This document shows, piece after piece, positions 16,782 through 21,642 of a DNA stretch of 64,000 bases; positions within the stretch are counted from its first letter, which is position 1, and every line of letters starts with the position of its first letter. Made by a program: the position numbers and the translations under genes. A model generated the notes under the pieces. It was not told where the DNA came from. It did no database searches and saw nothing but the letters and a program-made list of their open reading frames with translations. This DNA comes from Branchiostoma lanceolatum. Lineage: Eukaryota > Chordata > Leptocardii > Amphioxiformes > Branchiostomatidae. The DNA is taken from positions 12,229,424 through 12,293,423 of the forward strand of contig NC_089732.1 in the NCBI RefSeq assembly GCF_035083965.1, in the 5' to 3' direction.

Positions 16782-19700
16782 ATGGTGTCTATTCAGCGCC
16801 CCGTGGTCTGGCTCTCTGTGGTCTGTGCCGTCTTGGTGAGCGTACCGGTGTGGGTCGGCGGGCGGGACAACGACAGGGACTCCAGGGCTTCCGGGCAGTC
16901 GTTCGACTCGGTAAGTTTCTTGGGAGTATTGAATAGCCTGGGTGCCATCCAGTGGGTGCCATCCTATTTCTACCGGGGCTCCTACACTCGCACCGGTAGA
17001 AATAGGATGGCACCCAGGCTAAGTATTGTAGCTGGAGCTCACTGTGCTAATGTGCTAACGATTCGTTACGTTAAACAGGTCTGAAAAAAGACACACTGAC
17101 ACAGACTTTTCGTGTGACAAAACGTTAGTGCACTCGCATATGCGCAAACGTTCAAACCTTTATACCTGTTATGAGATATGGGATAATATCTGTATCTGTA
17201 TCTATATAGCAGGTATAACCACCGCCATAAGGCGTAACACACCATATTATATGGACACTAGTACTCCCTGAATGTACAAAACAAATTAAGAGTTTTCCAG
17301 TAAGATGACTCCATACATACCAACATATACATTAGATGTAGCAGCACTTTGATATAGTACATGTGTGGCACGGTGGTAGTTGTGGTTAGAGTTGTTGACT
17401 CAGAACCCGGAGGTACTGAGTTCGAATCCCGGACAGGTCCCGATGTTGTGCCCTTGGGAAAGGCACCTTACACCAATTTCCTCACTCGTCCCAGGCGTAA
17501 ATGAGTGCCTTGCTTCGGTTAGGGACGTCCCTAGGATAGGACGTTAAATGGAGGTCCCATGTTTGACATGTTTGAGGAGAGCCATGTGCACACTTCGAAC
17601 ACATTATGAACCCACCACACTTATCGAAGTAAAAGTAGGAGTTAATCACGGTGTGAGTGGATCAAATAAATCTGTAGCTTGTACTCTTCAGTACAAACCT
17701 GGTGTGTTACGCCATTAGGCGATTTACCGGGTATGCAATATAAACAAACAAACAAACATGTATGACGTCACGTATTTCCAGCGTCAAGTTTCAATACCAC
17801 CAGGCTGGAAACTGTCTGTGAAACGCAGCTGGCGACTCTTGTTGTGTAGCTGGGTTCATTCAGCCCTAGGCCTATTGACAGGGAAGGTCACGAGAAGCTG
17901 TCTGATCCAGATGTGAGGAGTGCACAAACCAGTCTGTGTCAAGCTCCTGTGTCTGGATCAGCCACTGGGTCCGCTCACGAAAACATCGTTCTATAAACGA
18001 GGAGAAAACCGTGCATTCAGACAACGTTTGGATATTTCGTCACAGTTCAAGACGTCTTTTGTTCCTTTAAGAAGCTGACATCAACTTCCTGGTATTACTT
18101 CTCCTTCATTCTCTTGGAGAATCTGTGTTTCCTGAGAGGTTGGTGCTCAATGTTAGAATTGGGTCATCATGGCTGCTCAGACTCGGAATCTATGTCACCT
18201 CTGGATGACTAAAGCTCTATACAGTATACTGTAACCGTGTAACGTTTAATAGCTCTTAAACACTGTGAATGTGACGTGGACTTTTTATCACTTTCAGCGT
18301 ACCATTTCCTGAGGTTTGCCCCAGTCATTTTTATGCATTTTGGCTAACAAACGAGGGTGCTACTTTACGTGGAAGCGACCCAGGGCACTTTTGTTTTCCG
18401 GCCAACTGACCTGGTTCCGAAACGTCTGTTATCTGACCTTTTAATAACTGTTTTGAGACCTCATTTCAAATGCAGAAACGCTTGATGGAAAAGCAGTCGG
18501 TTTTTGATGATCTACATGTCTATCATGGGTAATATGTGCCCTGATCTAAATTCCCGTCCAATCCTGCGCATCATCACAAAAGGGGGTAAATGAAAGGTCA
18601 GGCGGATAAAGGAACGCGGGGAGTTTCAGGAATCGTGTCGGGCGATGCCGAACAACCTTGTGATGTCGACCACTTTGAATTTGTCTTGTTTTTTTCAGGT
18701 ATCATGGTACATAGAAAAAGTCTGGAGATAGACTAAAGTAGCCGGCCTCTGTCTTAAAGATAATCCTAACGAACTTCAGTTCATCAGTTAACTTGTTGTA
18801 AATGTGTATGTGTGCTTAAATTACACTGGCGTTGTTATGTTTCAGCTTGTAATTGAAAACAAGATTTTTTCTTTAGTATCAATGCGTTATTACAGTAGCG
18901 TGATTCCGTAGTTTTTCTGTTTTTCTTATTTATCTATTTTTATTATTATTTACTAGCAAGTTCTTCTTCACACTCCAGGTGCCCAGAATGACGTCACAAG
19001 TGCGCCAAAACTTCCACGACGATTGCGAGGCGGGAATTAACAAACAGATCAACCTGGAACTGTACGCCTCCCAGGTCTACATGTCTATGGTACGGCGGGC
19101 TTTCTTCATCTCCAAGTCTGTAAAGTTAAAGTTAAAGTGACCCGGGCGTCTTGAAAAGACGCATAGGGGTGGCGCCCATCTCCATTTCTATAGCCCTTGG
19201 GCCACACACATTTGTGCAAGTCATTACAGCAGGGGGCTAGTCCGCTGGTAGTGATGTGTGTTTAACTTCCATACTCTTTCCCAAATGCTGAGTGCTAAGC
19301 AGAGAAAGCAGTATGTACCATTTTTAAAGTCTTTGGTATGACCCGACACGGTATGACCCGACCTACCGTGTGCAAGGCGAGCACTCTACCAACTAGGCCA
19401 TTGCACCGGTTGCTGTAAAGTAGTGCTATCTTAATCTCCAAGCAGATCTATCGGTGGCAATGTCAGTATCCAACAGGCAAAATCAGTATTATTAGCCACC
19501 GGGTATGCTGCTTTTGCCAGTTGGATACTGTCACTACCACCGATAGATCTGCTTGGAGATTACTAGTCGTGTTAAAGTGAAAGGAAGCACAAAACACAGT
19601 CGCGTCCATACATCCGCGATTCCATTGAAAATGGAAGTATTGTTTTGGGTCTGTCTGTTTGTCCGTGTCTGTCTGTCTGTCTGTGTTTGTCTTTCCGGAT

Positions 19701-21642: not shown

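Follow-up and report, generated by a model that had tools for sequence, protein, structure and literature searches.

One chain type of the insect secreted ferritins lacks full ferroxidase function, human L ferritin contains Leu at position 173, and the soluble residents of the ER (BiP, PDI and others) contain a signal peptide together with KDEL. Among the described systems, the Drosophila ferritin subunits Fer1HCH and Fer2LCH were reported to contain N-terminal signal peptides and to accumulate in the endomembrane system (PMC4783870), and iron loading of fly ferritin in the secretory pathway was reported to need ZIP13 (PMC4130162), which shows a secretory ferritin to be workable. Signal-peptide ferritins in general were described as having low identity to human H ferritin, a trend and not a strict rule (PMC8395497).

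The gene described here was found in a window of 64 kb (64,000 nucleotides, the whole stretch of DNA that was analysed) of the lancelet Branchiostoma lanceolatum. It belongs to the ferritin family and contains a signal-like exon, a C-terminal KDEL, the changes H65R and E67R, and a retained internal methionine, Met47. Like Fer1HCH and Fer2LCH it contains a signal-like N-terminus, whereas its KDEL ending has no counterpart in the main text of the fly ferritin paper, where KDEL occurs 0 times (PMC4783870), and the two fly genes adjoin whereas no second ferritin was found in the lancelet window by tblastn. The trend towards low identity with human H ferritin was not followed, 108 of 178 aligned columns being identical. 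The cytosolic H-type ferritins (human FTH1 and the chains 6kzy, 5wpn, 6ljg, 6lpe and 7vt2) were found to have the core, the start position and the channel residues in common with the lancelet gene, which differs from them by the signal exon, KDEL, H65R, E67R and the absence of a canonical + strand IRE. It is alike to the BiP/PDI-type residents in the signal-like N-terminus and the exact KDEL; unlike them, it belongs to a family forming a closed 24-subunit shell, which would be expected to bury the C-terminus, and no ERSE was found in 15000-16800. The ferritin L chain likewise contains a changed ferroxidase site and a hydrophobic residue at position 173, whereas the lancelet subunit keeps E27, Y34, E62, E107 and Q141, the ligand loss being confined to His65. 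The kind of animal ferritin is known; what appears to be new is that one animal ferritin combines a putative secretory exon and a putative retrieval signal with the change of a ferroxidase ligand. No native ferritin with both a signal peptide and KDEL was described among the matches listed in the open-access literature, and a pattern scan of viral contigs returned two matches and no confirmed relative.

Gene structure and the signal-like exon 1

The five exons were joined into a reading frame of 663 nt (220 aa), running on the + strand from the ATG at 16782 to the TGA ending at 21642, and the joined frame was found to contain no internal stops. The exon lengths of 129, 111, 147, 126 and 150 nt are all multiples of three and the introns are phase-0 throughout. 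GT and AG were present at every intron end, the weakest donor being that of exon 2 (ATG/gtacgg), and exon 1 was found to contain a full consensus donor (TCG/gtaagt). The five-exon ferritin gene of the preliminary description, at 16782-21642, was thus borne out by exon joining, splice ends and open frame, and its final codons, CTC GGG AAG GAC GAG CTG TGA, were confirmed by direct reading. The features of the locus are as follows.

16559..16565, + strand: TATA-like box upstream of exon 1; consensus match only, a possible promoter
16782..16910, + strand: exon 1, 43 codons; signal-peptide-like N-terminus (residues 1-27) followed by a polar linker; GC3 0.86
18979..19089, + strand: exon 2; VPR, then the start of the ferritin fold; ferroxidase residues E27 and Y34; Cys at the human S16 position
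18988..18990, + strand: internal ATG, Met47, at the cytosolic ferritin start position (MTSQVRQNF...)
20253..20399, + strand: exon 3, 147 nt; E61 and E62 retained; E64D, H65R and E67R
20615..20740, + strand: exon 4, 126 nt; E107 and H118 retained; final 36 nt form copy 1 of a tandem array that extends into intron 4
20705..21445, + strand: 80-bp minisatellite, 8.9 copies (TRF), made of the exon-4 end, the splice donor and intron sequence
21493..21642, + strand: exon 5; D131, E134 and Q141 retained; helix E; C-terminus FTLGKDEL, then TGA
21628..21642, + strand: KDEL and stop (AAG GAC GAG CTG TGA), as read from the sequence

The GC3 of exon 1 (0.86) was compared with overlapping 129-nt windows from four hand-chosen nearby non-coding stretches (5,834 windows by the script ranges), in which the mean was 0.41 (sd 0.09) and the fraction of windows as high as exon 1 was 0.0000; the GC3 of exons 2-5 was 0.73-0.84. 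The N-terminal residues 1-27 were found to contain a basic residue followed by a hydrophobic core and, by inspection, a plausible cleavage site after G27, with Val at -3 and Gly at -1 in keeping with the -3/-1 residue rule for signal cleavage sites. Hydrophobicity as the sole proof of exon 1 was rejected as too weak, since equally or more hydrophobic frames are not rare in the window. Of the 278 frames of 43 codons that open with an ATG, 8 reached at least the hydrophobicity of exon 1, and so did 4 of the 10 frames that extend from an ATG up to a phase-0 GTRAGT donor, with exon 1 counted in each case and two of the latter four coming from one Val-Cys repeat. The case for exon 1 rests instead on base composition, frame and position, and it is probably a real coding exon. 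The secretory N-terminus claimed in the preliminary description was well supported at the sequence level, and it is very probable that the subunit enters the ER. The cysteine C59 (human position 16) would be the only one left after a cut at G27, C15 lying inside the signal.

Ferroxidase site, C-terminal KDEL and proposed retrieval

The protein was found to match Pfam Ferritin PF00210 over residues 61-200 (E 1.4e-34), and the best PDB matches were ferritins (E 1e-71), the search having returned 217 distinct sequences within an E limit of 1e-20. The alignment set consisted of human H ferritin and the five PDB chains named above. Identity to human H ferritin was calculated over 178 columns, in which human residues 1-4 fall against the signal peptide in a placement without meaning, and identity to the five chains was 108-112 of 166-170. 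Five of the six ferroxidase ligands were retained (E27, Y34, E62, E107 and Q141) and the sixth, His65, was replaced by Arg; at the nucleation site E61 was retained, E64 was replaced by Asp and E67 by Arg. The residues E64, H65 and E67 were present in human H ferritin and in all five comparators. The three-fold channel residues H118, D131 and E134 were all retained, so that iron entry should work and iron can probably enter the cage. In a review, the H chain is described as losing its ferroxidase when E62K and H65G are combined (PMC6929972), and E62K/H65G/K86Q served as a ferroxidase-null in a study of sickle mice (PMC4029007); these published nulls alter two or three residues at a time. From H65R and E67R, a weak or inactive oxidase is probable unless an active partner is present in the cage.

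The C-terminus was found to contain an exact KDEL followed by TGA, in agreement with the ending described earlier and well supported by the sequence, and these four are the only residues after Gly176. Among the 2,230 stop-to-stop frames of at least 20 aa in the window, only one, the ferritin frame, ended in [KRHQSADE]DEL, although this frame had been picked before the count was made. A random C-terminus would be KDEL about 2 times in 100,000 at general residue frequencies, a chance that is perhaps ten times higher in ferritin tails because these are variable and often charged. A chance KDEL is possible somewhere among all animal ferritins and unlikely in one window, and the balance leans modestly towards some function of KDEL.

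In tagged mouse H ferritin, X-ray and cryo-EM were reported to place the C-terminal tags facing the cavity and to show the 'flip' orientation of helix E, with no 'flop' class in the account given and 6-7 of the 17 tag residues resolved (PMC6089422); in work by another group, peptides added at the C-terminus are likewise presented on the inside of the cage (PMC8825595). Position 173 at the four-fold axis was found to be Phe in the lancelet subunit, and His in the human one; of the four comparators reaching this position, three contain Glu and one contains Lys. Phe173 should favour a buried helix E. With the tail orientation borrowed from mouse H ferritin, where the tails point into the cavity, KDEL would be accessible as long as the subunits are loose and would be concealed once the cage has closed.

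The reading favoured here, at a probability of about 0.4, is that KDEL acts as an assembly-gated retrieval tag on a ferritin subunit entering the ER. The signal peptide would carry the subunit into the ER, where the last residues would be free as long as the subunit is single, paired in a dimer or part of an open cage, and loose subunits that leak out would be returned from the Golgi by KDEL receptors. On closure of the 24-subunit shell, helix E at the four-fold axis would turn the tail into the cavity, followed by the hiding of KDEL, and the closed cage would be free to leave the ER. The subunit would work best in a cage that also contains an active H-type partner, comparable to the combination of heavy and light chains in the secreted ferritins of insects, because H65R and E67R would probably cripple its oxidase. 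ER entry, tail masking, retrieval and the partner subunit are what we infer from the gene. In favour of this reading are the intact five-exon gene with its coding-like exon 1, the exact KDEL, the H-type core with its three-fold channel residues, the changes H65R and E67R, the inward tags of mouse H ferritin, the fly precedent and the lack of a canonical IRE. The lack of a second ferritin in the window counts against it, the fly genes being adjacent, as does the absence of ERSE, ERSE-II and UPRE patterns from 15000-16800, and among the literature matches listed no clear KDEL precedent was found for ER signals masked by assembly. The stronger form of the proposal, in which self-assembly itself switches off the retrieval tag so that only complete cages exit, and in which a subunit lacking a ferroxidase ligand serves as an assembly-reporting structural chain needing an active partner, is offered tentatively and is doubtful.

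The preliminary description had predicted an ER-resident ferritin. Its signal-like N-terminus and its KDEL stand, whereas residence is not the best reading since the mouse tails point inward. A static resident would hold helix E outward, with KDEL outside the assembled cages and the iron forming a lumenal store. The signal-like exon and the exact KDEL are what such a protein would contain, and ferritin iron was reported to be loadable in the secretory pathway (PMC4130162); on the other side stand the inward mouse tags with no outward class in that report (PMC6089422), and a tail of only four residues past Gly176 combined with Phe173, which should favour the buried helix. Static residence is accordingly considered unlikely.

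The ending could also be a chance one in a variable tail, which counts against the assembly-gated reading. The gene would then encode an ordinary secreted ferritin with its tail hidden in the cage and without effect. Signal peptides were reported in 25% of the non-insect invertebrate ferritins of a 533-sequence set (PMC8395497), and the tail after helix E was found to vary between human H ferritin and the single comparator extending past helix E. The low chance of KDEL per C-terminus, about 2e-5 and perhaps tenfold more in a charged tail, and its co-occurrence with a signal-like exon make coincidence a rather unlikely explanation.

Retained Met47, regulatory elements and repeats

Exon 2 was found to open with GTG CCC AGA ATG ACG, the ATG lying nine bases past the acceptor, and in the alignment Met47 falls on residue 1 of PDB chain 6ljg. 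The 147- and 126-nt exons are of the same size as those of vertebrate FTH genes. Since the cytosolic-type start persists as Met47, the gene looks like an ordinary H-type one to which the signal exon was added, and the simplest history would be that such a gene gained an acceptor nine bases 5' of its start and an upstream signal exon. The departure from the low identity to human H ferritin reported for signal-peptide ferritins suggests that the secretory form arose by a separate gain.

The same methionine offers a dual location, in which transcripts starting near exon 2 would use Met47 and yield a cytosolic ferritin with an idle KDEL, the signal-peptide form being minor. Met47 lies exactly at the canonical start with A at -3, and an upstream ATG at 16747, whose frame overlaps the exon-1 start, could reduce the use of that start. 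The start context of the exon-1 ATG (A at -3, G at +4) was nevertheless found to be stronger than that of Met47 (A at -3, A at +4), a pyrimidine-rich acceptor is present nine bases 5' of the exon-2 ATG, exon 1 contains its full donor, and no IRE was found near exon 2; a mainly cytosolic product is distinctly improbable. The upstream ATG opens a 30-codon frame, 16747-16839, which runs across the ferritin start and is out of frame with it. A pyrimidine stretch followed by CAG directly 5' of the ATG at 16782 could be a 5' UTR acceptor removing this upstream ATG.

A Rfam search of 14500-22500 with an E limit of 5 returned no IRE, and no canonical C-bulge IRE was found by the stem rule on the + strand of the whole window. 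The stem rule, under which a typed human IRE scores 5/5 with a C bulge, returned one match on the + strand (53381, with T replacing the bulged C) and five on the - strand, none of the latter within 14500-22500. A 5' exon outside the window could carry an IRE. The ERSE, ERSE-II and UPRE patterns were absent from 15000-16800, and short-pattern matches in the same region (MRE-like at 16446; ARE-like at 15282 and 15737) were given no weight. Poly-A-like signals were found at 22768 and 23257, more than 1.1 kb 3' of the stop. In digestive diverticulum cells of B. belcheri, ferritin was reported to account for 504 ESTs (3.37%), the gene copy being unspecified (PMC6015868).

The first copy of the minisatellite consists of the last 36 nt of exon 4 and its donor, followed by the repetition of the exon end in the intron-4 copies. 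Several copies were seen by eye to contain the donor-like CAGGTGGGT. The exon-4 frame reaches a stop ending at 20830, so that use of a later minisatellite donor would truncate the protein. The extra tblastn matches at 20779-21319 were rejected as a second ferritin, being copies of the exon-4 end within the minisatellite, and the remaining matches (E at least 0.77) were treated as noise. The Rfam rows resembling miRNAs in 14500-22500 were all under their gathering scores: 19430-19566 in intron 2, two at 16946-17023 in intron 1, and 15832-15884 upstream. The miRNA reading of these four rows was rejected as a matter of judgement, the intron rows being taken for palindromic repeats; the hairpin palindromes at 16946-17023 and 19430-19566 look like small inverted-repeat transposons.

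A decaying paralogue, in which the loss of His65 reflects relaxed constraint on a gene without a role, would fit the clustering of E64D, H65R and E67R in one helix turn and the joining of exon 4 to a minisatellite, and is very improbable given the absence of any stop or frameshift, the GC3 of 0.73-0.86 across five exons and the retention of five of six ferroxidase ligands with the three-fold channel residues.

Ten other frames of the window were scanned against Pfam, of which four contained matches and six did not. The SAMD1-like frame at 37136-38008 (- strand) was found to contain the winged-helix domain PF21524 (E 5.8e-31), with PF24971 below the cutoff. Two frames at 62526-63728 (+ strand) matched CoA transferase PF01144 (E 2.5e-6 and 2.1e-9) and presumably belong to a 3-oxoacid CoA-transferase gene. 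The frame at 6354-6839 (+ strand) contained a weak MFS match below the cutoff (E 0.0074) and resembles the beginning of a peptide/histidine transporter.

Consequences for secretory ferritins

If the tag is silent, the gene would serve as a useful caution against equating a C-terminal KDEL on a self-closing cage with ER residence. If the tag is functional and becomes hidden when the cage closes, as in the assembly-gated reading, it would represent a very simple route for exporting finished protein cages only. A cytosolic-type ferritin would then have become secretory through one 5' exon and four C-terminal residues, and the finding would bear on the storage and loading of iron in the secretory pathway of animals outside the insects.
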